Source: Paraglaciecola hydrolytica
GTDB lineage: Bacteria; Pseudomonadota; Gammaproteobacteria; Enterobacterales; Alteromonadaceae
Length of the DNA stretch: 64,000 nucleotides
Assembly: GCF_001565895.1 (NCBI RefSeq)
Contig: NZ_LSNE01000011.1
Location: 127,025 to 191,024, forward strand
Direction: 5' to 3'
Each line of letters opens with the position of its first letter. Position 1 is the stretch's first letter. Below are positions 9,106 to 53,006 of this stretch, one piece after another. The translations under genes and the position numbers were made by a program. The notes under the pieces were generated by a model, which ran no database searches, was not told the DNA's origin, and saw only the letters and a program-made list of their open reading frames with translations.

Positions 9106-10833
9106 TTATAGTCGTCCTGCTGCACGCTCTTTGAGCGCATAGTCTACTGCTCTGGCAGTTAACGCCATAAAGGATAAGCTGGGGTTTTGCGGAGCCGTTG
9201 AACAAAAGCTGGCACCGTCGGTAACAAACAGGTTAGGAATATCATGACTTTGGTTAAAACTATTAAGCACTGAGGTTTTGGGATCGCGCCCCATACGTGC
9301 CGTACCTACTTCATGGATAGCCAGTCCCGGTGGTTTATTTCTGGTTTGTCCTTTAACGTTGGTCAGGCCTACGGCTTCTAACATCAAGATCATCTGCTCT
9401 TTTGCGTCTTCCATCATCAGTTTTTCATTTTCTGAATACTGGCAATCGATGTCTAATTGAGGCATGCCCCATTTATCTTTTAGGGTAGGATGCAAGGCCA
9501 CTTGATTTTCAAAACGTGGCAACATTTCGCCCATGGCGTAAAAACTAAACTTCCACTTTCCGGCTTGTTTAAGACTGTTTTTAAAATCAACACCTATACC
9601 ATCTTGATGTTGTGTTTGTTTCCAGTTTTCACGGTAAGCACTGCCACCGAGCATGTAACCCCGTAAAAATTTACGTTTAGGATCCGGTTGATAATAAAAG
9701 TTGGGAACCAGAATACCGGTTGGACGACGGCCACGGTCAATCTCGTCCTCAAAGCCCTCAACGTCGCCGCCTGCATTGGCATTGTAATTGTGATCCATTA
9801 AATAGTGGCCAAGCACGCCGCTGTTGTTAGCTAAACCATTGGGCTGGGATTTAGTCGAGCTATTTAATAAAATTTGCGTACTGCCTAAGGTTGAGGCACA
9901 TAAAAACACTACTTTGGCAAAATACTCTCGCTGACTCAGGTCGTTGTTATCAATGACCCTGACACCAATCACCCGATTTTTTTGCTCATCAAAGATCAAA
10001 CTATGCACCACACTATCGGGCGCAATATGCAGTAAACCTGTTTTTGCGGCGGCCGGAAGGGTAGAGCTTTGAGTAGAGAAATAAGCGCCAAATGAGCACC
10101 CCGCCTGGCACTCATTACGTGCCTGACATTGCACACGCCCTTGGGAGTAATGTAATTCAGTGGGTTTGGTTAAATGGGCGGTGCGGCCAATGGTCATGTT
10201 TCGCGTTGGAAACAAGGCTTCGAGTTTGGCTTTAATGGCTTTTTCTGGTGAGCTCATTTCAAAAGGTGGTAAAAAATCACTGTCGGGTAACTGTGGCAAA
10301 TTTTCAGCTTGACCACTGATGCCCGCATGTTTTTCAACATAGGAATACCAATCAGCAATATCTTTATAACGAATAGGCCAATCATTACCATAACCATCTA
10401 ATGAATTTGCGGCAAAATCATAGTCACTTAAGCGATAAGATTGACGATGCCAGAGTAGGGATTTACCGCCCAATTGATTGGCACGTATCCAGCTAAAGGG
10501 TTTATCTTTTGGGGTGTTGTAAGGTAAATCACGATCATTGCCAAAAAAATGTTTGGTGGCATCTTTAAAGGCATAACATTGCTGTTGGATATTGTATTGC
10601 TGTTCTACCAATAAATTATCAACACTAGTGCGAAACTCTTGCTGCCACGGCGCTTTATTTTCACCGATATAATCTTTGCGATGTTCGACAATGCGGCCGC
10701 GCTCAATCATCAGGGTTTTCTGGCCTTTTTCACAGAGCTCCTTCGCAGCCCAACCTCCAGACACTCCAGAGCCCACTACTATCGCGTCATACACTTCGCT
10801 AGTTTGTTTAATATACATCTGTTCATTTTGCAT
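9106..10833 (-). CDS. GMC-family FAD oxidoreductase (gluconate/glucoside dehydrogenase large-subunit type)
   Basis: A 575-residue FAD flavoprotein of the glucose-methanol-choline group. The dinucleotide-binding GSGVSGGWAAKEL is near residue 20, a GMC-type C-terminal domain carries the catalytic His (LAIHEVGTARMG) and the FAD-contacting segment NLFVTDGASF...PQNPSLSFMALTARA. A cysteine-rich stretch CQARNECQAGCSFGAYF near residue 235 is typical of the large subunit of gluconate 2-dehydrogenase and of bacterial glucoside 3-dehydrogenase. It has no own signal and would be exported with its Tat partner encoded 55 bases upstream. Together with that partner and the isomerase-fusion gene it forms an operon. 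Likely role: oxidation of a sugar or glycoside hydroxyl to a keto group in the periplasm. No cytochrome c subunit gene is nearby. Confidence 0.85.
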   Translation of the reverse strand: MQNEQMYIKQTSEVYDAIVVGSGVSGGWAAKELCEKGQKTLMIERGRIVEHRKDYIGENKAPWQQEFRTSVDNLLVEQQYNIQQQCYAFKDATKHFFGNDRDLPYNTPKDKPFSWIRANQLGGKSLLWHRQSYRLSDYDFAANSLDGYGNDWPIRYKDIADWYSYVEKHAGISGQAENLPQLPDSDFLPPFEMSSPEKAIKAKLEALFPTRNMTIGRTAHLTKPTELHYSQGRVQCQARNECQAGCSFGAYFSTQSSTLPAAAKTGLLHIAPDSVVHSLIFDEQKNRVIGVRVIDNNDLSQREYFAKVVFLCASTLGSTQILLNSSTKSQPNGLANNSGVLGHYLMDHNYNANAGGDVEGFEDEIDRGRRPTGILVPNFYYQPDPKRKFLRGYMLGGSAYRENWKQTQHQDGIGVDFKNSLKQAGKWKFSFYAMGEMLPRFENQVALHPTLKDKWGMPQLDIDCQYSENEKLMMEDAKEQMILMLEAVGLTNVKGQTRNKPPGLAIHEVGTARMGRDPKTSVLNSFNQSHDIPNLFVTDGASFCSTAPQNPSLSFMALTARAVDYALKERAAGRL

Positions 10834-10888: not shown

Positions 10889-11524
10889 TTAGTAAGACAA
10901 GCCCTGGGAGCCCCAACTTGCATCACTTGTTTTATAAGGGATCGAGCCCGTGTAACCACCAGGTACGGCGAGATATCTTAGTTCCTTAGAGGCGCCGACT
11001 TCAGAGGTGTAATAACCAAAGCAAATGAGGGTTTTAAGGTATTTAAAATCATTGCGGTATTTTTGTTTAAAGTGGCTGGTGCCCAACTCTATGTGGTTAA
11101 GCAAGCTAACTTGTTGGGCCGCCGATAGTTCCACAAAACTGTGTTGGTATTGTGCTTGAGCTTCTTTATCCATATTAGTCAGCAGCTCAATAATTCGTTG
11201 TTGTTCTTTTACGGTGTGACAATGAAACAATTGATTATCGATAAAACCATGCACATCCACATCGGCTGCGCCAAGTGTTTCGGTTATAGGTATGACTTGG
11301 GCACAAATGGCTTTTAGCTGAATTAACTGCGCTTGCGATAACAATTTACCTGCTTTACTGGTGCTATCTGCTTGGGATGTATAGGCCATCGCCACTGAAA
11401 TAGCATTGCCGCCTAAGAGTTGCGTAGCCGCAGTGGCGCCGACTAAAACTCCAAAGCCGTTAAGAAAACGGCGGCGCGAGGTGTCGTGACATTGTTGGGT
11501 TTCATCCCCGTGATTTTGTGACAT
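10889..11524 (-). CDS. Gluconate 2-dehydrogenase subunit 3 family protein, Tat-exported
   Basis: A 211-residue small subunit. The N-terminus has a twin-arginine signal SRRRFLNGFGVLVGA followed by a hydrophobic h-region and an Ala-rich cleavage region. The mature part is helical with AQLIQLKAICAQVIPITETLGAADVDVHGFID, the typical pattern of the gluconate_2-dh3 family, which carries the GMC large subunit across the membrane and anchors it (family knowledge). ATG 11524 has AGGAAGTAAT directly before it; an upstream in-frame ATG at 11584 would put 20 odd residues before the signal and is rejected. It lies between the GH10-isomerase fusion and the GMC gene, in one transcription unit. Confidence 0.87.
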   Translation of the reverse strand: MSQNHGDETQQCHDTSRRRFLNGFGVLVGATAATQLLGGNAISVAMAYTSQADSTSKAGKLLSQAQLIQLKAICAQVIPITETLGAADVDVHGFIDNQLFHCHTVKEQQRIIELLTNMDKEAQAQYQHSFVELSAAQQVSLLNHIELGTSHFKQKYRNDFKYLKTLICFGYYTSEVGASKELRYLAVPGGYTGSIPYKTSDASWGSQGLSY

Positions 11525-11608
11525 ATTACTTCCTACACTATTGTTCGTGTTTGTTAACAACCTAAGGTTTTTAGTGACTAACAAAACTAAGGTGTTGTTA
11601 TGCTGAAT

Positions 11609-13780
11609 CTACAACTCAGCAATAATCTTATCTAAACCTGACTTGGATAAGGCCACTGCCTCTAAAGGTGTTACGCCTTCGGGATATTCTTCTTGCTCAA
11701 GCACTATCCATTGGGTACCACCATAAGCAATATTCGCTTTAAGTAAAGCGCCCCAGTCATATTTGTCTTGTCCTAAAATAGGACTTTGTTGGCTGTTGGG
11801 TTTTGTCCTGATTTTGAAATGAGTACTTAACGTTCGCCCAGGATACTTTTTGACATAGGCGATTGGATCTTTACCGGCAAAATTGACCCAACCCGCATCC
11901 AGTTGCAGTACTACAGTGTTAGCTGTATGTGAAGCTATGTAATCCCAGAAGCTTGTCTTTTGGAAATTATTAAATTCCTTATCATGGTTGTGAAAACCTA
12001 TATTAATGCCCCATTTGCTGGCCTTGGCTGCGGCCTCGTTTAATTCTTGAGTAAGTTGTTTTACACCATCGGGATGCCAAGCTCTTTTGTCCCAAGGCAC
12101 AATCACTAAGTCCACGCCCAGTGTCTGCATAAAATCTAAAGTGTTAGCGATATTTTGTGCATCTAGTTGCTTAATATTGACATGGGCTCCACTGGCTTTT
12201 AAGCCAAAAGAATCTAACAGGGTTTTGAGGCCTGCTGGATTAGTTTGGTAAGGTCCAAAATCACTGGCAAACTCCACGCCTTTAAAACCCAGTTCAGCTA
12301 GTTTTTTTAAGGTCCCGGTAAAATCTGCTTTAAGCTCATCTTTTATTGACCACAATTGCACACTCAGGGGCGGTATTTTATCGCGGTAAGATTGTTCTTG
12401 TTGCACTGAGTTATTGTTTTTGCTGGTTTTGATGATCAGCGTTTTAGCTTCATCAGCTAAATCGGTAGTGAGATGGATGGTCTTATTTGCGCTGGTGATA
12501 GTGAGTTCATATTGGCCTTTAAATCCGTGAACCAATACTTCGCCATCTTGATCTGTTGTTGCAGCGATGTCTGTATGCCAACGTTGTTTGGTTAAATACA
12601 GCCACATTTTTCCGTTAAGTGGCAAGGATAGATCCCAATTGATCAAACCCTTATTTTCTGGTTCATTTAAAGGTTTATCACCGGCACGAGAGGATTTGCT
12701 TAATTCGTTTAAAGTGGTCCACGCCATCACGCCGTTTACCTGAGGATGGGAGAACAATATGCTCATATAGTTTTCGGTTAGCTCGGCACGACGCAGCTCA
12801 CTTGGAGCAAAACGAAAACCTTTGTTATTGTTGGTATCAACAATTTCAAATTCGGTGGCCATTATGGGTAGCTTTAAATCAGCAAACTGCTCTAAACGCT
12901 CATAAACCTGTAGCGGTGTAATATCATCTACGCGAAAACGGGCTTGTACTCCAATCGCTTCAATTGGTCCGCCTTGTTGCAGAATTTTATCAATAATACT
13001 GCGATATTCGGTGATGCGATAAGCCTGTTGATGAGGGGCTGAAATAATGCGGTTTTCATTGATATAGAGTAATGCATCTTTATTACGACGATATTTGGCG
13101 GCTAGTTTAAACCAGTCGGCCATCGCCTCGTCACCAAGCATGGCTTGTATGTCTTTGTTATCAATGGGTTCGTTGATGACATCCCAGGCCATTACATCCC
13201 ATTTTTGCGCCGCAATTTGGATTTGCTGATCAACAAACTGTTTAAGCGCGGGGTTATTTTTACCATCTTTATACTGTAGCGCATCATCATGCATGTACTG
13301 CCAACCTGGCCATACTAGATTATGGCCACGCACATCAATATTTTGCTGTTTAGCCCATTCCAAAATCGGCGGCACATAAACCGCGAGTTCGTCTTTGCGT
13401 TTGTATTTTAGCGCATTGCCAAAACCAATTTGATTGGCAAAAGCGGGCAGCACCGGTTTTACTTTGTCAAAGTGCTTGGCGAGGATCACCGTACCAAAGG
13501 CAAACTGATGTTTTATCAGTTTGGCTGTTACTTTTACGTCTGGTATCGCTTGGCCAGTGTCGTCTACCACTTGTATCAATAAATGTTGTTTGCGAAATTC
13601 ATTGATCCTCTGCTCGGCAGCATCACGCCATGCTTCATCACCCTGCCACAGTGCAGGAGTTTCACCCACCTTTAATAAACTTTCTAGGCCGCTAATATCC
13701 TTACCATCATAGGTGGTCGACCAAGCGGGCAGACAGCTAGCTATAAACATGACAAAAACTAAAATTATGCGCATATACAT
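11609..13780 (-). CDS. Secreted fusion: GH10-type glycosidase plus xylose-isomerase-like TIM barrel
   Basis: A 723-residue protein with a signal peptide (MRIILVFVMFIASCLPAWS). Residues about 50-405 are a GH10 (xylanase-type) barrel: QFAFGTVI, GHNLVWPGW, WDVINEP with the acid/base Glu near 203, and ATEFEIVD with the nucleophile Glu near 310. A short beta-rich spacer follows (about 410-455). Residues about 468-722 are an AP-endonuclease-2/xylose-isomerase-like barrel starting PLSVQLWSIKDEL, with metal-ligand motifs GVEFASDFG, GFHNHDKEF, LQLDAGW, THFKI and LEQEEYPEG. GH10 and the second barrel are normally separate proteins. Because it is exported, the second domain cannot use sugar phosphates; a keto-sugar isomerase/lyase role with the co-transcribed oxidoreductase is my inference. 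The gene is divergent from the sulfatase gene. Confidence 0.87.
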   Translation of the reverse strand: MYMRIILVFVMFIASCLPAWSTTYDGKDISGLESLLKVGETPALWQGDEAWRDAAEQRINEFRKQHLLIQVVDDTGQAIPDVKVTAKLIKHQFAFGTVILAKHFDKVKPVLPAFANQIGFGNALKYKRKDELAVYVPPILEWAKQQNIDVRGHNLVWPGWQYMHDDALQYKDGKNNPALKQFVDQQIQIAAQKWDVMAWDVINEPIDNKDIQAMLGDEAMADWFKLAAKYRRNKDALLYINENRIISAPHQQAYRITEYRSIIDKILQQGGPIEAIGVQARFRVDDITPLQVYERLEQFADLKLPIMATEFEIVDTNNNKGFRFAPSELRRAELTENYMSILFSHPQVNGVMAWTTLNELSKSSRAGDKPLNEPENKGLINWDLSLPLNGKMWLYLTKQRWHTDIAATTDQDGEVLVHGFKGQYELTITSANKTIHLTTDLADEAKTLIIKTSKNNNSVQQEQSYRDKIPPLSVQLWSIKDELKADFTGTLKKLAELGFKGVEFASDFGPYQTNPAGLKTLLDSFGLKASGAHVNIKQLDAQNIANTLDFMQTLGVDLVIVPWDKRAWHPDGVKQLTQELNEAAAKASKWGINIGFHNHDKEFNNFQKTSFWDYIASHTANTVVLQLDAGWVNFAGKDPIAYVKKYPGRTLSTHFKIRTKPNSQQSPILGQDKYDWGALLKANIAYGGTQWIVLEQEEYPEGVTPLEAVALSKSGLDKIIAEL

Positions 13781-13906
13781 CTCACAACGGGTTAATCAAA
13801 TGCCACATTAAAACAGCCAAATGTCTTAAAACTATGTGAGCAAAGGGGTAACTTGTATCAAATGCGCTCAACATACTAGTTGTGTTAACGTTAATTTGGT
13901 CAGCAA

Positions 13907-13944
13907 TTGTCGCACTATCGTTAAATGCGACAACTTGATACATT
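13907..13944. promoter_or_regulatory. Inverted-repeat operator candidate shared with the two-component operon promoter
   Basis: TTGTCGCA (13907-13914), an 11-base spacer and TGCGACAA (13926-13933) form a perfect inverted repeat. TGCGACAACTTGATACATT (13926-13944) occurs again, reverse-complemented, at 20904-20922 before the response-regulator gene. The distance to the downstream start codon is nearly the same in both (77 bases to the sulfatase ATG, 85 to the regulator GTG) and the relative orientation is the same. It lies between divergent genes, so it could act on both. Confidence 0.65.
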
Positions 13945-14021
13945 TCGTCTACTTTTTGACGTTACCTTGTCAGCTTTTGCGCTTTATGATGCTAACACTT
14001 CGATAATAAAGAGAATTTTGA

Positions 14022-15671
14022 ATGAGCAATAACATGCAGTACCGCGGATTTATGCGACATCTAAGTTACTTATTTACTTTACTACTACTGATGCCTGCCG
14101 GTTTTGCCTTAGCGGCGACTAAACCAGCCAATGTCATCTTTGTGCTCACCGATGACCAACGCTACGATGAACTGGGTTTTATGAACCCCGTGCTCGATAC
14201 CCCGAATATGGATAAAATGGCCAATGAAGGGGTGCATTTTAAAAATGCTTTTGTGACTACCGCACTGTGTTCACCCAGTCGTGCATCCATACTCACAGGG
14301 CAGTACATGCATAACCATGGCGTAGTAGATAACAATGCGCCGCCTAAAGAGGGCACGACATTCTTTTCTAGCTACTTAAAAGAAGCAGGTTATAACACTG
14401 CTTTTGTGGGGAAATGGCACATGGGTGAGTCTCGTGGCCATGGCGCAAAAGACGCACCACAACCCGGCTTTGATCACTGGGTGAGCTTTCCTGGTCAAGG
14501 TAATTATTACCCAACGACCTTAGCCAATGGCGAGCCCTATACCTTGAACGTCGACGGTGAGCGGGTGCCACAAAAAGGTTATATCACTGACGAATTAACC
14601 GACTATTCCATTGATTGGTTGGAGCAACAAAAAAAGAGCGATAAGCCGTTTTTCTTGTATTTATCGCACAAGGCGGTTCACGCTGACTTTCAACCCGCAG
14701 AACGCCATGAAAACCAATACCAAGGTAAAGAAATTCCGGTGCCTAGCTCACAGGCCGATACTGAGGAAAACTATGAGGGCAAACCTTTATGGGTTAAAAA
14801 TCAGCGTAATAGCTGGCACGGAGTGGACTTCCCTTATCACAGCACCTTAGATGTGCAATCTTACAAAATGCAGTATCACCGTGCGCTTTCTGCTGTTGAC
14901 GACTCTTTAGGTCGTATCTTCCAATGGCTAGAAAAAAATGGTCACGATAAAGACACCATAGTTGTACTCATGGGGGACAATGGTTTTATGTTTGGTGAAC
15001 ACGGACTGATTGATAAACGTAATGCTTATGAAGAATCCATGCGTGTACCCTTATTAGTACGTGGGCCGGGTATTATCGCCGAAAAAAGCGTAGTGCATGA
15101 AATTGCCGCGAACATCGATATCGCACCGACTATTTTAGATATTGCTGGCGTTAAAAAACAACCACAACAGTTTGAAGGTCAAAGTTTACTGCCCTTAGCT
15201 AAAGGCAAAAAAGTGGCTCAATGGCGCAGCGAATTATTGTATGAATATTACTGGGAATTCAATTACCCCAGCACACCAACCACATTTGCGCTGCGCACCG
15301 ATGATTACAAATTCATTACCTATCATGGTGTTTGGGATACGGAAGAGTTATACGACATCAAAAATGATCCACAAGAAATGCATAATTTGATTAATGACGA
15401 GTCATATTTAAGTATTGTTGCCAACCTCAGATCACGCTTGTTTGCCAAATTAGAAGATAATAATGGCCAGCATGCTGTGCCTTACACTGAGCGCTTTTCG
15501 AGCGGAGCAGTGCTGCGTGAAGCAACACGTTCTAAAGAAGCTACGTTTCCAGCTCAGTGGTTAAAAGTGCCCAATGAAAAGGGTGATATACCAGGAAGCA
15601 GAGACTTTATGCAAACTGACGAAAAACGCGCTAGCATGTCAAAAGTAGAACAAAAGCCCATCAAAAAATAA
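14022..15671 (+). CDS. Secreted type I (formylglycine) sulfatase
   Basis: A 549-residue sulfatase of the alkaline-phosphatase superfamily (S1). A signal peptide (h-region LSYLFTLLLLMPAGFALA, about residues 14-31) directs export. The metal site begins with FVLTDDQRYDELG, the signature CSPSRASILTGQY carries the cysteine that would be converted to formylglycine, and later motifs VVLMGDNGFMFGEHGL and RVPLLVRGPG complete the site. It should remove sulfate esters from a marine polysaccharide. Maturation needs a formylglycine-generating or anaerobic maturase enzyme, which is not in the window. The start has AAGAGA eight bases upstream; later in-frame ATGs at codons 5 and 11 are possible. It is divergent from the GH10-isomerase fusion and shares the operator region. 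Confidence 0.92.
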   Translation: MSNNMQYRGFMRHLSYLFTLLLLMPAGFALAATKPANVIFVLTDDQRYDELGFMNPVLDTPNMDKMANEGVHFKNAFVTTALCSPSRASILTGQYMHNHGVVDNNAPPKEGTTFFSSYLKEAGYNTAFVGKWHMGESRGHGAKDAPQPGFDHWVSFPGQGNYYPTTLANGEPYTLNVDGERVPQKGYITDELTDYSIDWLEQQKKSDKPFFLYLSHKAVHADFQPAERHENQYQGKEIPVPSSQADTEENYEGKPLWVKNQRNSWHGVDFPYHSTLDVQSYKMQYHRALSAVDDSLGRIFQWLEKNGHDKDTIVVLMGDNGFMFGEHGLIDKRNAYEESMRVPLLVRGPGIIAEKSVVHEIAANIDIAPTILDIAGVKKQPQQFEGQSLLPLAKGKKVAQWRSELLYEYYWEFNYPSTPTTFALRTDDYKFITYHGVWDTEELYDIKNDPQEMHNLINDESYLSIVANLRSRLFAKLEDNNGQHAVPYTERFSSGAVLREATRSKEATFPAQWLKVPNEKGDIPGSRDFMQTDEKRASMSKVEQKPIKK

Positions 15672-15682
15672 CGATAAACGAA

Positions 15683-15725
15683 AGTAAGTACTGACATTAA
15701 CAAGTGGTTTTTGTTGGTACTTACT
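15683..15725. terminator. Hairpin between sulfatase and LysR genes
   Basis: AGTAAGTAC (15683-15691) and GTACTTACT (15717-15725) form a 9-bp stem just beyond the sulfatase stop and 30 bases before the convergent LysR stop. No clear T-run follows, so terminator function is probable rather than certain. Confidence 0.45.
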
Positions 15726-15754
15726 GAATTCCATCTTTAAGCTTAAAATTTGTG

Positions 15755-16657
15755 TTAGCGAAATTCTGGGATCTCAGTTTTCAAGCAATCAATAAAAGCA
15801 CTGAGTTTTAAGGGCATATAATCTCTACTTGGATAAACCAACCAAGTGGATGTGTCAAAATCTGCTGCTGCGCATTCGTAGTCGGGGAATAAATTAACCA
15901 ATCTTCCATCTGCTAACTCATCGCGACACGCCCAATCTGGCAGTAATGACACACCAAGTCCGGCAACAGTACTTGCTGTCATTGTTAATCCATGAGAAAT
16001 CAACAAATGACCATTGACCGCCACGGCGAGGTCTTTTTGCTGAGCTTGACGAAATTTCCAGGCATCACGATATCCAGGAATTGAAAATCGTAAACACTCC
16101 AATTCACTTAAACAAAGTGGATTTTTGCTGATTTTATTTGCTTTGATAAAAGCTGGGCTGGCACAGACAATAAATTTTCTAGGCGCTAATTCCAGACAAA
16201 TAAAATCATCAGATGGTTTTTTGCCAAAACGGATTGCGACATCGATTTGCTGCTCAACAATATCAACTTGATTGTCAGCCAATACCAAGTCAATGACGAG
16301 TTTTGGATATTTCTTTCTCATTACCGATAATAAGGGCACTAATATTTTTTGCCCGAAAGAGGTACAGGCGGCTACTCTGAGGTTGCCGATCGGCTCATTG
16401 GATAAATCTAAAGCCTGTTCCCCAGCTTTGAGAAAGGTGGCGACCAGTCCTTCTACTTGAGTAAAATAGGACTTTCCTGCTTCGGTAGGTGATAACTTTC
16501 GAGTCGTGCGTTGGAGCAAGCGAAAACCCAAGGTTTCTTCAAGTTTGCGAATAGAGCGAGATACTGAAGAAGGGTCAATGTTACGCATTCTCGCTACTTC
16601 AGCAAAACTGTTGCGCCGCATTACATCAACAAATAACTGGATGTTGTTCAAATCCAT
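15755..16657 (-). CDS. LysR-family transcriptional regulator
   Basis: A 300-residue LTTR. Residues 1-60 are the winged helix-turn-helix (MDLNNIQLFVDVMRRNSFAEVAR, IDPSSVSRSIRKLEETLGFRLLQRTTR) and residues about 90-295 the ligand-binding domain (IGNLRVAACTSFGQKILVPLL). The sequence resembles the CrgA/DsdC-like aromatic or stress group without identifying a ligand. ATG 16657 is preceded by AAGGAG; a longer frame to 16732 lacks a ribosome site. It is divergent from the cupin gene with 115 bases between the starts, the standard LTTR arrangement, so the cupin gene is its likely target. Confidence 0.92.
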   Translation of the reverse strand: MDLNNIQLFVDVMRRNSFAEVARMRNIDPSSVSRSIRKLEETLGFRLLQRTTRKLSPTEAGKSYFTQVEGLVATFLKAGEQALDLSNEPIGNLRVAACTSFGQKILVPLLSVMRKKYPKLVIDLVLADNQVDIVEQQIDVAIRFGKKPSDDFICLELAPRKFIVCASPAFIKANKISKNPLCLSELECLRFSIPGYRDAWKFRQAQQKDLAVAVNGHLLISHGLTMTASTVAGLGVSLLPDWACRDELADGRLVNLFPDYECAAADFDTSTWLVYPSRDYMPLKLSAFIDCLKTEIPEFR

Positions 16658-16772
16658 TCGTGCACTCCTTACATTAATGTCATGATTGTATAGGTATTTA
16701 CTGCGCAAGTAACCTGCTGTTAAGCTCCCCAAGGCATTAGTTAAACTAAACGTAGAAAAAGGAGTATTTCAA

Positions 16773-17129
16773 ATGGGCTTAAAATTTTATAAGCAGTTTT
16801 TTACCACACAGTCTGAAGTCTTAGCCGATATAGAAAAAAATAATACCTGGCCAACCACTTTTGTCTCAGGTGCGACCGAGGGACCTCCAGTGCATTGGCA
16901 TAAAGATGAAGTTCACGCTTATATCATGGAAGGGGAAACGGATTTTCTTGATGGGGAGACCAATATAAGAACAGCAGTCAGTGCTGGCGACAAAATTATT
17001 GTGCCTGCCGGTGAACTGCATGCTGAGGGCGCGATTAAAGATCGGGTGGTGTATATGCTGGCGTTACCAGAGCCAAGATTACCTGAAGATTTTCTCGCTA
17101 TGTTTATACCTGAAGAACGAACAAAGTAA
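16773..17129 (+). CDS. Small cupin-domain protein
   Basis: A 118-residue single-domain cupin. Both cupin motifs can be seen: PPVHWHKDEVHAYIMEGETDF with three metal-ligand-like residues (His, His, Glu) and AGDKIIVPAGELHAEG with the fourth His. Such proteins bind a metal and act as isomerases, dioxygenases or sensors; the substrate is unknown here. AAAAAGGAG lies 8 bases before the ATG. It is controlled, probably, by the divergent LysR gene. Its last ~24 codons and about 55 bases beyond the stop are duplicated at 18531-18655. Confidence 0.85.
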   Translation: MGLKFYKQFFTTQSEVLADIEKNNTWPTTFVSGATEGPPVHWHKDEVHAYIMEGETDFLDGETNIRTAVSAGDKIIVPAGELHAEGAIKDRVVYMLALPEPRLPEDFLAMFIPEERTK

Positions 17130-17235
17130 AAATAGCTATCAGAGAGTCGATAAATCTCTAAATCCAACAAAGTGCCTGAGAGTGTAACCTTTGCTTAAGA
17201 GCAGCTAAATTATCCGTGCTACAGGCTACTTTAGA

Positions 17236-18045
17236 TTATTTTAGAAGGACCAAACCGCCCTTGGTAAACGGTTTGATAACCGCTGGGACCGCTTTATAAA
17301 ACACCGGCACGGTTTGTACTTTATAGGCATTGAGATAATAACGTGGTGGCCACGCGTGAGCTGGATACTGTGCATCTTTGGCTGTTTGCAGTTGAGTGAC
17401 ATCAAAAGTATAGGCATTGGGTAATGCTTGATTGCTGCCTGGTACTGTGTCGCGGGTGTCAATGTAGTTGTCGCTAAAATCAGCACAGCTGCCAAAGTGT
17501 TCAATGCCATATTGCCAAAATATACCTGAATAAACGGCGACGGGATCTAAGTAGGTTGTTTGCACAATTAGGCTAGGATTAACTGATTTTGCGCCTTCAC
17601 ATAGGCCTAATGTAACAAAGGCACCACAACTGTGGCCAATAACATGAATGGCTTTAAGGCTAGATTGTGTAGCCAAACGTTTACCTATTTCAAAACCCAG
17701 ATTTTTCCCCACCACCGAACATAGAAAGACATTACTTGAATAGTCTTGCCAGTTGATACTGTGATGTTGTTGAACAATATCGCCTAATTGTGGTGAAGGC
17801 GCTGTCGCCATTAAAGCTTGTAACTCGTCGCTCCAACTGCTTGGGGAGTCGTTAACTCCATGTGCTGACAAGGTAATATATTCCGTGCCTTCTGCCATGG
17901 TTATGTGGCTAATGGATGAAAAATCACGGGGCCAATAGGTGTAAATGAATAGCCCTAATGACACTAATACAAAGGGAATGCTGGGCAGCAAAACCAACCA
18001 CCAAAAAAATAGGCGAATTAATTTTTGATTGTGCAATTTGGGCAT
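17236..18045 (-). CDS. Membrane-anchored alpha/beta-hydrolase-like protein
   Basis: A 269-residue protein with one N-terminal helix (LFFWWLVLLPSIPFVLVSLGLFIYTY, about residues 12-37) and a periplasmic lipase-like domain. VIGHSCGAFVTLGL near residue 137 is a GxSxG nucleophile elbow, and the fold context (beta strand before, YLDPVAVYSG after) fits an alpha/beta hydrolase; the Asp in YLDP and a later His (PAHAWPPRYY) could complete the triad. Substrate unknown. It is convergent with the cupin gene and ends 107 bases from it. The region upstream of its start contains the rearrangement scar described below. Confidence 0.65.
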   Translation of the reverse strand: MPKLHNQKLIRLFFWWLVLLPSIPFVLVSLGLFIYTYWPRDFSSISHITMAEGTEYITLSAHGVNDSPSSWSDELQALMATAPSPQLGDIVQQHHSINWQDYSSNVFLCSVVGKNLGFEIGKRLATQSSLKAIHVIGHSCGAFVTLGLCEGAKSVNPSLIVQTTYLDPVAVYSGIFWQYGIEHFGSCADFSDNYIDTRDTVPGSNQALPNAYTFDVTQLQTAKDAQYPAHAWPPRYYLNAYKVQTVPVFYKAVPAVIKPFTKGGLVLLK

Positions 18046-18198
18046 GAGGCGGTTGGTAGCTTACTTAATGGTACTAGTGTGATGAATTGCACCGTAGCTC
18101 GCAAGTTTAGTGCAAATTTTAATTATCACTAAAGCACTGTGGCACTGCTTAGTCAGCTTGGTTTATTTGGGTTTGAGGCATGTTTAAACGCAGGTTAT

Positions 18199-18236
18199 TG
18201 CTCCTAAATAAAGTACAAAGTCGTTATTTAGGAGCA
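18199..18236. terminator. Perfect 13-bp hairpin beyond a truncated gene
   Basis: TGCTCCTAAATAA (18199-18211) pairs exactly with TTATTTAGGAGCA (18224-18236), 20 bases beyond the stop of the minus-strand gene fragment. There is no T-run, so it may be a factor-dependent terminator, an mRNA-stabilising stem or part of a repeat. Confidence 0.5.
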
Positions 18237-18255
18237 CCATATTACTGCAAGCTTA

Positions 18256-18530
18256 CTATAGTTTTGTCAGTTCAATCCCTTTGATAAAGACATCTTCATC
18301 ACTGCGCAGTTGTTGCATTTCTTTAATATTAAACGTTAAAAATCCGCTATCAGGTGATAATTCAAATTCACCAATATTATGTGATTGCCACGTTAGTTCG
18401 GGCGCAGTGTAGGTGGCATAACGCTGTTGTCCCGTGTTTTGAACGGGCACAAATTTGGGTAAATCCAACTTTAAATCAATACTTTTCTCAACTAGGGTTA
18501 AACTGCCTCTTAAGCTCACTAAATCACTTT
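18256..18530 (-). pseudogene. C-terminal fragment of an unidentified beta-rich protein
   Basis: About 91 codons in one frame end at a normal stop (…VFIKGIELTKL). The pattern of short hydrophobic/polar strands (SLTLVEKSIDLKLDLPKF, GEFELSPDSGFLTFNIKEM) resembles the last domain of a secreted beta-sandwich protein. The frame can be extended to an ATG at 18576, but those first ~15 codons are simply the antisense of the duplicated cupin end, so the true 5' part of this gene was lost at the junction near 18530. I cannot name the parent gene. Confidence 0.6.
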
Positions 18531-18655
18531 TGCTGGCGTTACCAGAGCCAAGATTACCTGAATATTTCCTCGCCATGTTTACGCCTGAGGAACGACCAAA
18601 GTAATGAAATAATTATTCAACAGAGTGTTGATCAATCTCTATATCCAACAAAGCC
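18531..18655 (+). pseudogene. Duplicated 3' end of the cupin gene
   Basis: This copies 17056-17172. The last 74 coding bases differ at only 7 positions (about 90% identity), ending again in a stop (LPEPRLPEYFLAMFTPEER), and the match continues about 50 bases past the stop (TATATCCAACAAAG against TAAATCCAACAAAG). The 5' two-thirds of the cupin gene is absent. It is a non-functional remnant of duplication or of recombination between two cupin loci. Confidence 0.8.
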
Positions 18656-18725
18656 TCCTAATCGAGTATGTTTGCAATTTTGTTATTTTTCGTACAGGGA
18701 TGTGCAGTAGCAGTATAGGCTGGGC

Positions 18726-20099
18726 TTATAAGGGTAAAATAATAACGGCATCTAAGCCTTTAATTGGCCGGTTGTTTAGCTCTATTTCGCCGCCATGAGA
18801 ACGCACCACTGAACGAGCAATAGCCATGCCTAAACCCATACCACCAGAACTTCTATTACGTGATTGTTCTGAGCGTTCAAAAGGCTCAAATAGACGTTCT
18901 TTTTCAGAATCGGGGATACCATTACCCTCATCTTCAATATGGATTTCTAAGGTACTCGTCGACTGCACAATAAAAACATTAACACGATGACCATAGTCCA
19001 CCCCATTTTTGATTAAGTTACTGATGGCCCGTTTTAAAGCGATGGGGCGTCCTTGAAAAGGGATTTTATGTTGTGCATCAAAACTTACATCGAGCTCTTG
19101 GGCATTAAGGTCACAACACAAGGATTCAATCAAAGAGGTGAGATCAAAGTGTTTGTTTTTTTCTGACCAAGAGTCTTTTAAAGCAAAGGTTACTGTGGCC
19201 TCACATATTTGCTCCATCTCTTCTATTTTTTCTAGGATATTGTGCTGCACGTCAGCGTCAGTAATATATTCTGCATTCAATCGCATTGAGGTTAATGGCG
19301 TGCGAATATCGTGAGAAATAGCCGCTAATGCTCTAGCGCGGTGATCGTTAACACTCAATAAACGTTTGTGCATGGTATTAAATGCCACAATGGCATTTTG
19401 CATGTCTTCAGGGCCTCTTGGCTCGAGAGGAGCAATGGCATGGCCCTTACCGAATTTATGAGCATTGTCAGCTAATTCCGCCAAAGGGCTGGTAAGACGT
19501 TTAACCACAAATACGGCAAAAATAATAAAGATAAAGGTAAAAATCGCCATGGGTTTTACAGTGGACCGGATCCAAATGGGAAAATTATGTAAATCAAAGA
19601 CAGTCATGCCTAGCCATTTTCCATCGCTCAATCGTATTTGAGATTGCATAAGGATATTGCGTGGGTCGTTTTTAAGTTCTGCAGTGAGAGTGCCCGATAA
19701 CTGATCTTTTAAATAAACCATCGCCGCATATAAGCGATTTTCGATGGGTTTAAACTGGCGCATGGTGGCGCTGGGTTGTTGATCGTTAAATTGTTGCTGC
19801 AATTGTATACTGCGCACTTTGTCAGTGGCTGACATGTGAGTTACATCGTACAAGGGCTTGTTACCAACAGAGAACTCTACTCGATAGGTATTCATCGCAT
19901 ATAGATGTTGTTCGGAAGAATGCTCTATGATGTTTAGTGCCGCCTTCATTTTTAGTTGAAAGTGCTCTCCTTGTAAATTTTTGCTGACAATATCGTTTTC
20001 ATCAGTTTCAAAAACAAAAATAGTGAATATTAATAATTGCGTACTAAATAGCGCCACCAGAACTAACAAAATCATCTGGCTTGATAATTTTTTAAGCAT
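18726..20099 (-). CDS. Sensor histidine kinase, EnvZ/OmpR type
   Basis: A 457-residue membrane kinase. It has a first transmembrane helix at about 8-28 (MILLVLVALFSTQLLIFTIFVF), a periplasmic sensor domain of about 150 residues, a second helix at about 178-198, HAMP, HisKA with the H-box ALAAISHDIRTPLTSMRLNAE (phospho-His near 261) and HATPase_c with N-box NLIKNGVDYG, DEGNGIPD and GGMGLGMAIARS. It follows the response-regulator gene with only two bases between, so it is its partner. The stimulus is unknown; the shared operator upstream suggests a link to sulfated or xylan-like saccharide use. Confidence 0.93.
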   Translation of the reverse strand: MLKKLSSQMILLVLVALFSTQLLIFTIFVFETDENDIVSKNLQGEHFQLKMKAALNIIEHSSEQHLYAMNTYRVEFSVGNKPLYDVTHMSATDKVRSIQLQQQFNDQQPSATMRQFKPIENRLYAAMVYLKDQLSGTLTAELKNDPRNILMQSQIRLSDGKWLGMTVFDLHNFPIWIRSTVKPMAIFTFIFIIFAVFVVKRLTSPLAELADNAHKFGKGHAIAPLEPRGPEDMQNAIVAFNTMHKRLLSVNDHRARALAAISHDIRTPLTSMRLNAEYITDADVQHNILEKIEEMEQICEATVTFALKDSWSEKNKHFDLTSLIESLCCDLNAQELDVSFDAQHKIPFQGRPIALKRAISNLIKNGVDYGHRVNVFIVQSTSTLEIHIEDEGNGIPDSEKERLFEPFERSEQSRNRSSGGMGLGMAIARSVVRSHGGEIELNNRPIKGLDAVIILPL

Positions 20100-20101
20100 T
20101 A

Positions 20102-20818
20102 TTAATGGTGCTCAACAGGGCTAGTTAAAATATATCCACCGCCCCAAACCGTTTTAATAATTTTGGGCTCGCTAGCATCAACTTCGACTTTACGTCTTAA
20201 ACGACTGATTAAATTATCGATACTGCGATCAAAGGCTTTGGCTTCGCGCCCATGAGTTAAGTCGAGTAATTGGTCACGAGTTAATACTTTTTGTGGGCGC
20301 AAGATAAAGGCTTGTAATAAACGAAATTCAGCGGCACTTAAGGCAATCGACATATTGTCGTGGCCGACTAGTTCCCGTTGATTAAGATCTAAAGTCCAAC
20401 AATCAAATTTTGATGTGCTGCGCTCTTTAGTCACTTGGTTAATTTGCACTGGTTCACTTTGGCTGCGTCGAAGTACGGCTTTTAATCTGGCAAGCAATAC
20501 ACGGGGGTTGAAGGGTTTGGTGATGTAATCGTCAGCACCCATTTCTAGGCCCACAACTTTATCTGAGTCTTCCGACAGAGCTGTCAGTAAAATAACCGGT
20601 ATTTTGTATTTGTCTTGCACGTAACGACATAGAGTGAGGCCGTCTTCATCTGGCATCATAATATCCAGCAAAATAATATCTATTGCACTGGTTTCAAGCA
20701 GACTGCGCATGTTTTTGCCGCCATTGGCACTGCTTACACGAAATCCATGGTCGAGCAAATATCGCTTTAGCGACACAATAATGTCTGGGTTATCATCCAC
20801 GATGAGTACATGAGTCAC
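20102..20818 (-). CDS. OmpR-family response regulator
   Basis: A 238-residue regulator. The receiver domain (1-120) has the acidic pair VDDNPD, the phospho-acceptor in DIILLDIMMPDEDG and the conserved Lys in DDYITKPFNPRVLL. The C-terminal winged helix (about 140-235) ends in RSIDNLISRLRRKVE...VWGGGYIL, typical of OmpR/RstA-like regulators. Translation starts at a GTG (20816-20818) with GGAGA upstream. It heads the operon with the kinase. An inverted repeat 85 bases before the start is a probable autoregulatory site. Confidence 0.94.
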   Translation of the reverse strand: MTHVLIVDDNPDIIVSLKRYLLDHGFRVSSANGGKNMRSLLETSAIDIILLDIMMPDEDGLTLCRYVQDKYKIPVILLTALSEDSDKVVGLEMGADDYITKPFNPRVLLARLKAVLRRSQSEPVQINQVTKERSTSKFDCWTLDLNQRELVGHDNMSIALSAAEFRLLQAFILRPQKVLTRDQLLDLTHGREAKAFDRSIDNLISRLRRKVEVDASEPKIIKTVWGGGYILTSPVEHH

Positions 20819-20903
20819 GTTATACGTCTCCGATTAACTACTGCATCACTATAGCTAATACAATGAGCGAGCTTAAGTATTAGTTACAAATCGACTCAAC
20901 AAT

Positions 20904-20941
20904 AATGTATCAAGTTGTCGCAAAAAAATGATTTTGCGACA
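20904..20941. promoter_or_regulatory. Inverted-repeat operator candidate before the two-component operon
   Basis: AATGTATCAAGTTGTCGCA (20904-20922), a 12-base spacer and TGCGACA (20935-20941). The first 19 bases match exactly, as reverse complement, the site between the sulfatase and GH10-fusion genes; TTGTCGCA/TGCGACA forms the inverted repeat in both. I infer that it binds the response regulator encoded next to it. Confidence 0.6.
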
Positions 20942-21024
20942 CGTTTATTGAAGAACAGTGAACTAGCAGTTAACAGATAGGCAGATAAGAGCAATGGAAT
21001 GTTGCATTAATTTGTCGTTTTCCG

Positions 21025-22416
21025 CTAATCATCTGCTTGGATATATTGTTTGAAACAGTTTTTTTGTTGAGCTTTGGCGTCATATAACGCTTGATCGGCT
21101 TGGCTATATAAGTCTGACACTGTGGTGTTTTTATGCGGTTTTAATACGGTAATACCAATACTGGCGGTGACTGAAACTGACTCGTGCTCGGAAATTTGGT
21201 GTTTTTGGGCGGCGATGGAGTCTAACAGTCGTTGGCAAATTTGCTCGGCATCAGCTGACTGTTCGATTTTTAAAGAGAAAGAAAATTCCTCTCCTCCTAA
21301 GCGACCAAAACAGTCTTCCTGTCTAAATACGGCTCGTATGCTATCGGCCGCCAGTTTGATCACATTATCGCCGATGTCATGACCATATTGGTCATTAACG
21401 GCTTTAAAATTATCTAAATCTATTACGCCCATTAAGAGTAGCTCACCACTACGTTTAGCCGCACTTAATTGTTTTTGCATATTGTCCATAAAACTACGAC
21501 GGTTGGGCAAGCCGGTTAAAAAATCATAGTAGGCCAAACGTTGTAATTTAAAATTGGTATTTTTTAGCTCGGCGGTTTGTTGCTCCACCATCTTCAATAA
21601 GTTGTCTTTGAGCATTTTTAAGTCTTTGTTGCTCTTTTCTAATTGCTCGGCATGGAATTTTTGTTCGGTGACATCCCGTTCTATGGCGGCAAAATGGGTA
21701 ACTTTACCCAGTCTATTTTTAAGGGGGATAATATTGATGTCGAGCCAATAGGGGCGACCGTTTTTGCCATAATTGAGCAGAGTTTCGCGCACTGGTTGTT
21801 TGGCTTGAAGGGCTTTGCTAATGCGTTTTAAACTGTCGGCATCGGTAAAATTACCTTGCAGAATGCGTGGTGTATCACCAATAACTTCTGTTTCTGTATA
21901 ACCTGTTAGGGTTTCAAAAGCCTTGTTTACATAAACAATTTTGGGGCCTAAGGGGCTGGTGAGTAGATCGGCCTCGGTAATAATAATAATGTCTTGAGCA
22001 TTTTCGACTACATCTTGAAAAGAGAACTGGGTTTTTTTATCGGTAATATCGGTAAAAGTGACCACTACAAAACCACTTGTGCCAAAGCCTTCGATATAGG
22101 CATCCACTAAAAACCAATTGATGTCTTTATCATGGTGAAATACGACGCCCAATATTTCTTGATTGAGCGTCTCATGGGCGTGCACGACTCGGCTAACTGG
22201 ATAGCTTTCTGTTGGCAAAACTTGACCATATTCGTCAACAAAATGCCATTGGGGATCCATGGCATCTTTACCAATAATTTGCTCATAGGTTAAATTCAAC
22301 AACTGCAATGCCGCGGGATTTGCGTATACAACAGAAGTATCTATATTGTGAATTACCACACCAATTTTGGCATTATCTAATAATTTCTTTAGATTAATAT
22401 CACTTAGATCTGTCAT
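21025..22416 (-). CDS. PAS-PAS-GGDEF diguanylate cyclase
   Basis: A 463-residue soluble protein. Two PAS domains (about 8-120 and 130-255; the second has YVNKAFETLTGYTETEVIG and the PAC end FAAIERDVTEQ) are followed by a coiled-coil linker (about 255-290) and a GGDEF domain (about 295-460). The active-site loop is intact, GGEEF near 375, and RQED five residues before it is an RxxD inhibitory site. It should make c-di-GMP in response to a redox, light or ligand signal sensed by the PAS domains. No EAL domain. Single gene. Confidence 0.93.
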   Translation of the reverse strand: MTDLSDINLKKLLDNAKIGVVIHNIDTSVVYANPAALQLLNLTYEQIIGKDAMDPQWHFVDEYGQVLPTESYPVSRVVHAHETLNQEILGVVFHHDKDINWFLVDAYIEGFGTSGFVVVTFTDITDKKTQFSFQDVVENAQDIIIITEADLLTSPLGPKIVYVNKAFETLTGYTETEVIGDTPRILQGNFTDADSLKRISKALQAKQPVRETLLNYGKNGRPYWLDINIIPLKNRLGKVTHFAAIERDVTEQKFHAEQLEKSNKDLKMLKDNLLKMVEQQTAELKNTNFKLQRLAYYDFLTGLPNRRSFMDNMQKQLSAAKRSGELLLMGVIDLDNFKAVNDQYGHDIGDNVIKLAADSIRAVFRQEDCFGRLGGEEFSFSLKIEQSADAEQICQRLLDSIAAQKHQISEHESVSVTASIGITVLKPHKNTTVSDLYSQADQALYDAKAQQKNCFKQYIQADD

Positions 22417-50018: not shown

Positions 50019-53006
50019 ATGAATAATTACAAACATAAATCACTGAGCAAATTGATTGCCGCTATCTTAGCGGGCAGCTCAGCTTTAAGCGTTATGGCAG
50101 TGGCTAATGCTGCTGAACAGAGTCAGGTAAAAAGTGACCCTAAATTAGCTCAAACCCAAACACAGCAAGAAACGCAAGTTGAAAAAGACGCAACAGGTGC
50201 ACAAGCAGAAGACGAAGATGGCCTAGAAGTTATCGAAGTATCTGGTATGCGTTTTAGTCAATTAAAAGCGCTGGATCGTAAGAAAAATGGCGGCACCATG
50301 ATGGATTCATTGGTGGCTGAAGATATCGGTCAGTTTCCTGATAAAAACGTGGCTGAAGCATTGCAACGTATTCCGGGTGTGCAACTAAGCCGAGATTTTG
50401 GCGAAGGTGATAGTGTCAGTATTCGTGGTGTCGAACCGGGCTTGCTTAAAGTTGAAGTCAACAACGTATCGGCACTAGGTTTTGGCGGCAGTCGTGGTGT
50501 GGATTTTCGGGATATGGCTTCAGAACTCATCAAAGCCTTGGATGTAATTAAAGGCTCGGAAGCTCGCCTGACCGAAGGTGGTATCGGCGGAACTATTCAA
50601 GTAGAAACCCGCAAACCCAATGAATTCAAAGAAAACTTTTTAGCCCTCAGTGCTGAAGGTCAATACAATGATTTGATTGACAACGTGAGTCCTAAAGTCA
50701 ATTTTACTGGTGTTTATAAGTTTAACGATAGATTGGGTGTATTGGTTAATGCCACTGCATCGGATAAAAGCACCATGATCCATGCTCTGCGTAACACCGA
50801 GTGGAACCGTTATGCAGATTACGACCAAACAGCCGAAAAAACCTCGGTGCATCCAGATTATGCCAATGTCACCGATGCTGGTGAGTGTTTATCCGCAGAA
50901 GATCCCACTGCCTGTGAGCAGCAATGGTGGGACTTTTCACCCGTAACCCCCCGTTATGGTATTTGGGGACGTGATGAAAAACGCTTAAGTGCTAACGCCA
51001 CTTTACAGTATCAACTCACCGATAATTTATCTGGTCATGTGGGTTATACCTATAATACTCGTGACAAACAGGCTTTGGATTTGAATATCGATTTAGGTGT
51101 GGGCTCGGTGCTTAGAACCAATCCGGATTCGGTGGTGGTCGATGAGCTGCACAATGTACGATATTTTGAAACTACCTTAGCGGGTATCTCAAACCGAACC
51201 CTTAACTTTGCCTGGGATCAAACTACTACCTTATTGGATGCAGGTTTTGTATATGCCAACGATGCGTGGCGTATTGAAGGATTAGTGTCTGAGTCAACCT
51301 CTGATCAAGACATCGATTCACGGGATACTCACGCTACCACCGAAGGCATTGCTGGAGTCAAAGTTACTTTAGATGATCGCGGTGCGCCTGAATGGGATTA
51401 CAGTGATGGTTATTTTGTTAATCCTGAGGATCCCACTGATACCTCTGATCGCTTTAATATTAATGATCCTGCTAGTTATCGTAACCGGGTCAGATATAAA
51501 TATGCCCCCCATGAAGATCAGGCTAAAGAGATTATGGCCAAGCTGGATATTACCTATATTCCAGATTCAGACTTTTTGTCGACGCTCAAAGCAGGCTATC
51601 GTAGTAGCTCGCTAAAAGTCGAAAATGCGGATTTTTCCTACAATATTATTCGTGACGTAGGTTCGACCTATAACAGTGAAGTATGGACACTACAGGACAA
51701 CATTAACGTCTTGAGTGGTCGTACTTTTGAGTCCCGTGAACTATTTAGTGGTTATGATCTTGGGGTCAATACCGTAGGTACATATTGGGCGGTGAATACC
51801 GAACCCTTTATTGAAGTGATGAAATATATCTCCCAAGAAAACCTTAGTCGCGCTGACTTAGATGTGATTAACGGAAACTACGATCAGGTGGTAAATACTG
51901 ACGCGTTTTATTTTCAAGCCAACTTTGAACATGAATTAGCCAGCATGCGTCTATGGGGTAACCTAGGTTTACGTTATGTAAAAACCGAAATAGGCGCTAA
52001 TGGTGATGTTAGAGAAAGAGTATTTGTTGATCAGACCGATACCTTTGGCAATATTTTGGTCGATCAATTTGGTATTGATTTGGCGGGTATTGAAGATCCC
52101 GATCACCCTCAGGCTTTTGTAGGCAGAAAAACCGTGATCGAAGACTATTCGAACAGCTTGCCTAGTATCAACCTGAATTTAGGTTTGATCCCCGACGAGT
52201 TGGTGTTATATGTCGGTGCTGCCAAAGTAATGGCTCACCCTAATACCGGCGATTTAAACGTTAATGCCACGTGTAATATTTATCTGACGCGCCGTTCGCA
52301 GTTAGAAGATGAACCACGTAATAACTGTAGTGCAGGTAACCCAGCACTCAAGCCTTATATGGCAAATCAATGGGAAGTGGCCTTAAACTGGTATCCTACT
52401 GAGGAGTCTATTGTAGCGGGTAGTTATTTTGTTAAAGACATTAATAGTTGGATAATCGATGCCAATACACGTTACGACGTGGACTTTTTTGGTGATGGCC
52501 GTTTATGGGATGTCAGACAAAAAATTAATGGCAGTGGGGTAACCAATAAAGGTTTGGAGTTACAAGCCTCTACCACTTTCACTTTTTTACCAGACCCCTT
52601 TAGCAATCTTGGTGGGGCTGTCAACTTTACGCATATGCAATCAGAAGATGTCGGTTTGTTTAACGCCTTAACCGGCGAAGAACTGTCGTTCCCCTCTATG
52701 TCTGAAAATGCTTACAACCTGACAGCCTATTATGAAGATGAGCATTGGAGTGCACGTATCGCCTATAACTATCGTGATGAATATCTAGCGCGTGCGCAGG
52801 ATAGATCAGGCAACCCAGTTTATGTTGATGCTGGTGGATATCTGGATGCCAAACTCATTTATACCTTTGATAATGGCCTGAAGATTTATATCGATGGTCG
52901 TAATCTTACCGGTGAAGTGAAAAGCGAAAATGCCGGCCCAGGTCGTTTGTCTGACTTACAGTGGTCAGGACGCGAATACTCGGTAGGTTTCTCGTATAAA
53001 ATGTAA
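50019..53006 (+). CDS. TonB-dependent outer-membrane receptor of the rhamnogalacturonan locus
   Basis: A 995-residue receptor. Signal peptide SKLIAAILAGSSALSVMAVANA, then an extended linker rich in Gln/Glu, a TonB-box-like DGLEVIEVSGMR, plug (DKNVAEALQRIPGVQLSRD, SVSIRGVEPGLLKVEVNN) and a large beta barrel ending in an aromatic-rich strand (REYSVGFSYKM). It belongs to the large oligosaccharide-type receptors of Alteromonadales rather than siderophore receptors. Position just after PL11 suggests import of rhamnogalacturonan oligomers. AGGGAA precedes ATG 50019; 29 earlier in-frame codons are rejected. Confidence 0.92.
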   Translation: MNNYKHKSLSKLIAAILAGSSALSVMAVANAAEQSQVKSDPKLAQTQTQQETQVEKDATGAQAEDEDGLEVIEVSGMRFSQLKALDRKKNGGTMMDSLVAEDIGQFPDKNVAEALQRIPGVQLSRDFGEGDSVSIRGVEPGLLKVEVNNVSALGFGGSRGVDFRDMASELIKALDVIKGSEARLTEGGIGGTIQVETRKPNEFKENFLALSAEGQYNDLIDNVSPKVNFTGVYKFNDRLGVLVNATASDKSTMIHALRNTEWNRYADYDQTAEKTSVHPDYANVTDAGECLSAEDPTACEQQWWDFSPVTPRYGIWGRDEKRLSANATLQYQLTDNLSGHVGYTYNTRDKQALDLNIDLGVGSVLRTNPDSVVVDELHNVRYFETTLAGISNRTLNFAWDQTTTLLDAGFVYANDAWRIEGLVSESTSDQDIDSRDTHATTEGIAGVKVTLDDRGAPEWDYSDGYFVNPEDPTDTSDRFNINDPASYRNRVRYKYAPHEDQAKEIMAKLDITYIPDSDFLSTLKAGYRSSSLKVENADFSYNIIRDVGSTYNSEVWTLQDNINVLSGRTFESRELFSGYDLGVNTVGTYWAVNTEPFIEVMKYISQENLSRADLDVINGNYDQVVNTDAFYFQANFEHELASMRLWGNLGLRYVKTEIGANGDVRERVFVDQTDTFGNILVDQFGIDLAGIEDPDHPQAFVGRKTVIEDYSNSLPSINLNLGLIPDELVLYVGAAKVMAHPNTGDLNVNATCNIYLTRRSQLEDEPRNNCSAGNPALKPYMANQWEVALNWYPTEESIVAGSYFVKDINSWIIDANTRYDVDFFGDGRLWDVRQKINGSGVTNKGLELQASTTFTFLPDPFSNLGGAVNFTHMQSEDVGLFNALTGEELSFPSMSENAYNLTAYYEDEHWSARIAYNYRDEYLARAQDRSGNPVYVDAGGYLDAKLIYTFDNGLKIYIDGRNLTGEVKSENAGPGRLSDLQWSGREYSVGFSYKM

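Follow-up and report, generated by a model that had tools for sequence, protein, structure and literature searches.

A four-half-site operator is predicted to place a sulfatase promoter under an autoregulated OmpR-type two-component system in Paraglaciecola hydrolytica

The locus described here raises a simple question: why do two promoters 7 kb apart, one serving a sulfatase gene and the other a regulator–kinase operon, carry the same 19 bases? In the window (the whole 64,000-nucleotide stretch of the Paraglaciecola hydrolytica genome that was analysed), the 19-mer TGCGACAACTTGATACATT occurs exactly at 13926-13944(+) and 20904-20922(-), 77 bases from the sulfatase ATG at 14022 and 85 bases from the regulator GTG at 20818, and the window holds no further copy with up to three mismatches; 100 shuffles of the window gave a mean of 0.01 copies. 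Around it lies an inverted repeat, TGTCGCA-N9..14-TGCGACA, found in the window only at 13908-13932 (spacer 11) and 20916-20941 (spacer 12), and in none of the shuffles. The identity, the inverted repeat with its two spacers and the two distances had all been claimed by a first-pass annotation of this DNA, and they hold to the base. The search of the whole genome (5,221,450 bases in 20 contigs) that it proposed returned the palindrome, with spacers of 8-16 allowed, at these two promoters and nowhere else, and a single extra place for the 19-mer at up to three mismatches: C3:696606, with two mismatches, within a 367-aa reading frame that we take, from its sequence, to encode an epimerase. Exact identity over such a distance might suggest that a small mobile element or repeat was copied from one promoter to the other, but the genome holds two copies only, their spacers and flanks differ, and other genera keep the element about as far from the orthologous genes, which already contradicts this reading and leaves it barely credible.

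The palindrome first noted turns out to be the inner part of a larger element. In an alignment of 15 operators, the full operator spans ~47 bp and reads TTGTATCAAGTTGTCGCA-N11/12-TGCGACAACTTGATACAA, with spacer letters that are not conserved. Each arm consists of two TGTNNCA heptamers (TGTATCA and TGTCGCA) set 10 bp apart, which is a half-site period of ~10 bp, and the half-sites follow one another as two forward, N11/12, two reversed; spacers of 11 and 12 are normal variation of the operator. The palindrome is its inner heptamer pair, and the 19-mer covers the inner and outer heptamers of one strong arm. By a matrix made largely from the same 15 sites, the right arm scores 17.8-31.0 bits and the left 0-31.0, the right being the stronger in 13 of the 15, and it is the right arm that faces the regulator gene in all seven regulator promoters. 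The outer left heptamer, however, is degenerate in both window operators (Table 1). Applied to the genome itself, the whole-operator profile lifts only the two window places above noise, the next being the coding place C3:696606 at E 0.25.

Table 1. Features of the window that bear on the predicted operators; the profile scores of operators A and B come from a profile for which both were among the 15 building sites
Feature	Position	Strand	Evidence or remark
GMC-family oxidoreductase	9106..10833	-	PF05199 1e-18
Gluconate 2-dehydrogenase subunit-3-like protein	10889..11584	-	PF13618 1.7e-28
GH10 + xylose-isomerase-like TIM-barrel fusion	11609..13780	-	Glyco_hydro_10 2.3e-30, AP_endonuc_2 2e-12; divergent from sulfatase
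Lone TTGATACA	13854..13861	-	~73 bases upstream of GH10-fusion ATG; no proper second arm
Operator A, between GH10-fusion and sulfatase genes	13898..13942	+	profile 35.6 bits, E 5.2e-8
Operator A, left heptamers	inner TGTCGCA 13908-13914; outer degenerate 13898-13904	+	
Operator A, strong arm TGCGACA-ACT-TGATACA	13926-13942	+	spacer 11
Candidate -10 TATGAT, sulfatase promoter	13985..13990	+	consensus match only; 41 bases past strong arm
Sulfatase, predicted operator A target	14022..15671	+	Pfam Sulfatase 9e-67, SGSH_C 1.5e-45
Sensor histidine kinase, EnvZ-like	18726..20099	-	HisKA + HATPase_c; 2 bases after regulator gene
OmpR-type response regulator, GTG start	20102..20818	-	Response_reg PF00072 1e-29, Trans_reg_C PF00486 4.7e-22, both above cut-off
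Candidate -10 TATAGT, regulator promoter	20848..20853	-	consensus match only; 51 bases past strong arm
Operator B, upstream of regulator-kinase operon	20906..20951	-	profile 38.1 bits, E 8.2e-9
Operator B, strong arm TGCGACA-ACT-TGATACA	20922 down to 20906	-	spacer 12
Operator B, left heptamers	inner 20935-20941; outer degenerate 20945-20951	-	

Which protein, then, would read this element? The 19-mer is very probably the strong arm of an operator for the OmpR-type regulator encoded at 20102-20818, which would control its own promoter and that of the sulfatase, and this regulator is the most likely protein to bind operators A and B. Its residue D52, presumably the phospho-acceptor aspartate as in its family, is invariant among eight homologues, as is the H263 block of the kinase. 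Because their scores fall below the NCBIfam equivalog cut-offs (244.8 vs 331 bits for OmpR, 192 vs 415 for EnvZ), the two proteins are not OmpR/EnvZ proper; a structure prediction of the kinase from its single sequence (mean pLDDT 41.5) was left unused. Another local regulator might bind the element instead, above all the LysR-type protein encoded at 15755-16732, whose gene sits between the two operators and whose family binds dyads. Yet the syntenic 33.8-kb locus of the same-genus genome G014 keeps the operators while its frames of at least 100 residues include no counterpart, at E 1e-5, of the LysR or cupin proteins, the operators accompany the regulator–kinase genes across genera and precede a diverged regulator in G242, and tandem half-sites at 10 bp in a 47-bp element fit poorly with the T-N11-A form of LysR sites, all of which makes such a binder very unlikely.

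The neighbouring genes appear to serve the breakdown of a sulfated polysaccharide. On the sulfatase side of operator A, the G014 orthologue (79% identical) also has an operator. On the divergent side, the GH10 fusion is a possible second target, and the genes of the subunit-3-like protein and the GMC oxidoreductase likely share its operon, given gaps of 24 and 55 bases. The lone TTGATACA upstream of the fusion gene might be a weak half-site for that side, weak as the evidence is. Control of the divergon, as the first-pass annotation proposed it, is supported for the sulfatase; for the GH10 fusion it is plausible but less well shown, because the strong arm faces the sulfatase. The fusion itself has no full-length match in 97 other genomes, a wider contig search with its protein confirmed no relative, and in G014 the isomerase domain and GH10 are separate genes. 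The window also contains a TonB-receptor match (50217-52916), with no operator arm nearby. Just behind the kinase gene, a 106-aa frame at 18256-18576(-) is 37% identical over 107 residues to the C-terminal part of a 617-aa sulfatase that occupies the equivalent place in G014, and is possibly the relic of a lost sulfatase. Adjoining the regulator gene is a gene for a PAS-GGDEF protein (21025-22416), of which a 53% identical paralogue in another part of the same genome, at L074:8604-11031 (G000:C3), is again found beside an isomerase-like paralogue.

How widely is this arrangement kept? In a search of 98 genomes, the strict palindrome returned, besides the window's own places, only a coding-region match in G044 and a match on a 4.2-kb contig in G011. 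The lack of conservation that this suggested was only apparent, because the strict form is too strict, as the full operator definition showed. Of 395 genomes of the family, eight carry the two-component system in closely similar form, judged by a kinase match with E no higher than 1e-70, and in seven of these, two with near-identical loci (G191 and G307), an operator lies 68-87 bp upstream of the orthologous regulator gene. The exception, G107, has no operator above noise in an assembly that is 85% complete, in 200 contigs, with the system on a contig of 7.6 kb; there (G107:C63, L080) the regulator gene comes after tryptophan-halogenase-like and SapC-like genes. Autoregulation by the OmpR-type regulator, as predicted from the sequence, is well supported by this distribution.

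The genes that stand behind the operators of these relatives are as telling as the operators themselves. The G014 locus is syntenic (GMC oxidoreductase 80%, sulfatase 79%, regulator 78% identical) and additionally encodes further sulfatases, a GH10 enzyme and a TonB receptor, with operators upstream of the regulator, sulfatase, GH10 and TonB-receptor genes; before the last, however, the strong arm is the one that points away from the gene. Elsewhere, the genes directly behind operators encode a GH3 enzyme (G191), TonB receptors (G287 and G429), a sulfatase (G429) and alpha-L-fucosidases of family GH29 (G287 and G429). The association of the full operator with this two-component system and with sulfatase and glycosidase genes is what the search of related genomes, also proposed earlier, brings out, and the suggested small saccharide regulon fits: our genome would devote two operators to it, and those of its relatives precede sulfatase and glycosidase genes. 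Since sulfatases accompany fucosidases in the relatives, these genes suggest that the target glycan is a sulfated, possibly fucose-containing polymer. Two further kinds of site were seen. Receiver-less Trans_reg_C winged-helix proteins are encoded directly behind operators at L086:1563-2198 and L088:1187-1930 (in G429 and G287) and are perhaps a second regulatory tier. In G024, the variant arms TACGACAASTTTAAACA and TGCGACAACTT, weaker than the main operator, lie upstream of GH10, sulfatase and another gene (L071:9144-9162, 10760-10778, 15590-15608 and 15721-15739).

The rarity of the operator can be judged from a sequence-only profile of the 15 sites, applied under strict filters to the 395 genomes. 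It returned 25 rows that score at least 29 bits, which are 17 distinct places, all in seven genomes that carry the system; 15 of the 17 are training sites that had been found beside the system, a circular result, and two are independent. Both new places are in G429:C13, one before a sulfatase gene and one between two GH29 fucosidase genes. No place reaches this score in the 387 genomes that fall short of the kinase threshold; the three best there are in G003, G004 and G242. At the G003 place (28.3 bits), the promoter belongs to a truncated sulfatase gene, of which 67 residues with 84% identity to the sulfatase of the window are left; the same genome has a second weak site at 19.5 bits. The G004 place (24.1 bits) is a single arm flanked by cinA- and mutS-like genes, and the G242 place (21.8 bits) is the promoter of a diverged regulator, 51% identical, with a 35% identical kinase. 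A system-bearing genome adds a sulfatase promoter in G024:C35 (25.5 bits). Nine weaker places that we inspected (18.4-20.9 bits) are without exception internal to reading frames 80 or more residues long, six of them at the same position of one gene in one genus. As a separate observation, arms persist in two genomes of the same genus, G003 (L124:9835-10346) and G004 (L125:9869-9886), without a close copy of the system, and look like relics of a lost locus beside what we take, from their sequences, to be mutS-, cinA- and recA-like genes.

Does the element act as DNA or as RNA? An inverted repeat in a 5′ leader might fold into a hairpin, and the arms are indeed perfectly complementary in G287 (18/18), with four pairs changed on both sides across the alignment against 2.4 in shuffles. 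Overall, however, paired cells make up 75.4% of the total and 73.7% in shuffles, 34 of 500 of which came as high, the covariation score was reached by 118 of 500 shuffles, and 11 of the 18 pairs depart only by broken cells. Transcripts begun from the candidate -10 boxes would leave the element out, since it stands upstream of those boxes, and arms without clear covariation suggest that it works as DNA and not as a helix of RNA; a leader hairpin is highly improbable.

If the element is an operator, the direction of control can be approached from its position. In 20 promoters (17 operators, three read both ways, with G307 left out as a near-copy of G191), a -10-like hexamer lies 29-31 bases past the arm in seven, a count reached in 0 of 1000 rotations. 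The candidate boxes of the window, at 41 and 51, fall outside this range; we read these offsets as roughly one and two helical turns beyond it. Because of the operator's position relative to the promoter, activation rather than repression is inferred. The same operator and regulator might instead repress until a signal relieves them, and candidate -10 boxes near the arm in several relatives (offsets 28-30) leave room for occlusion. The arm, though, stops upstream of where a -35 region would be expected, at a favoured distance, which is a usual placement for an activator, and the candidate -10 of the sulfatase promoter in the window has, by eye, no good -35 hexamer at 17-bp spacing ahead of it, so that repression is unlikely, if less so than the other alternatives. 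The analysis shows the sequence, geometry, conservation, gene linkage and rarity of the operator; for activation, the course of events that we infer, comprising signal, phosphorylation, binding and promoter activation, is as follows. The neighbouring kinase would sense a sugar-related signal, leading to phosphorylation of the regulator, which could then bind each arm as a head-to-tail dimer, the strong arm first. Once bound, it would aid RNA polymerase at its own promoter, in positive autoregulation, and at the sulfatase promoter, and the divergent GH10-fusion/GMC operon would probably be helped too.

Does the geometry reach beyond this family? A wider contig search gave no close orthologue of the regulator among the matches listed, and we took the 80 distant regulators among them (40-57% identity), keeping 67 independent 220-base upstream regions after 13 of the 80 were dropped as near-duplicates. 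Among these matches, the four-heptamer pattern with at least 14 of its 20 fixed letters occurs in 14 of the 67 promoters (53 fall short) vs 8 of 797 control regions, the other upstream regions of the same loci, from which 0.7 would be expected; since 11 of the 80 promoters had already been viewed when the pattern was settled, this enrichment is strong but not blind. It peaks at spacer 11 among spacers 6-17, and a heptamer scan free of any consensus gives its highest means at a period of 10 when the spacer is 11 or 13, two settings with a common centre; start distances in the heptamer scans count from the aligned first residue, the start codon being unchecked. The best examples come from Aeromonas fluvialis (20/20), Loktanella (19/20) and Thalassospira australica (18/20). 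A palindrome scan of these loci is not enough to pick out spacer 11, because odd spacers from 5 to 21 are all somewhat raised in it; the heptamer pattern does pick it out. The operator profile is weak on the 80 distant loci because the letters diverge too much. With E values up to 5 allowed it has three matches, and the strongest of them, at E 0.15, precedes the Thalassospira australica regulator gene by ~80 bp. On balance, we lean towards a reading in which this OmpR-type subfamily is widespread in Proteobacteria and would have in common an operator of four half-sites (two forward and two reversed around N11, at a 10-bp period) before its own gene, bound by paired head-to-tail dimers, with letters that drift with the regulator and a geometry that stays. 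The subfamily would then range over genomes of the window's family, Aeromonas, Thalassospira, Loktanella, Pseudomonas and others, and would here have been recruited to sulfated-glycan loci, including those with alpha-L-fucosidases.

The earlier view of an operator shared by the regulator promoter and the sulfatase divergon is essentially right, and what it describes adds a well-delimited form to a known type of control. It yields a base-level, testable prediction of the promoters controlled by an apparently uncharacterised two-component system, in hosts that seem to degrade sulfated polysaccharides; a full-text literature search returned no description of the element or of the system among the matches listed. 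Beyond this locus, the most interesting claim is the putative wider geometric rule: tandem half-sites at 10 bp, facing across 11 bp, could allow related OmpR-type regulons to be predicted from sequence alone.

Among known systems, the locus resembles marine polysaccharide utilization loci in placing sulfatases and glycoside hydrolases, and in relatives (G014, G287 and G429) TonB receptors, behind the operators of one local regulator. Such loci are usually controlled by hybrid two-component or LacI-type regulators. Here, in contrast, an OmpR-type pair would serve two operators only, and no TonB-dependent receptor, the classical mark of such a locus, comes under the same control in this genome. 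The regulator and kinase have the same domain types as OmpR/EnvZ of Escherichia coli. In the part of the source consulted (PMC7380067), OmpR binds two tandem 10-bp half-sites as a tandem dimer, and each arm here has two heptamers in tandem at 10 bp, as a regulator of OmpR type would lead one to expect; unlike in OmpR/EnvZ, there are two such pairs in opposed orientation, 11-12 bp apart, and the operators are linked to glycan genes. The same portion of that source describes AgrR of Cupriavidus metallidurans, an OmpR-family regulator involved in silver resistance and presumed to be a type II activator with positive autoregulation, whose site combines inverted and in-phase direct half-sites, the promoter-proximal half being the better conserved (PMC7380067). 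The AgrR/CopR-type box sets inverted half-sites around a ~4-bp spacer (6-4-6, 16 bp; same excerpt), whereas the arms here are of 17-18 bp and are separated by 11 or 12. By analogy with OmpR and AgrR, each arm would take one head-to-tail dimer.
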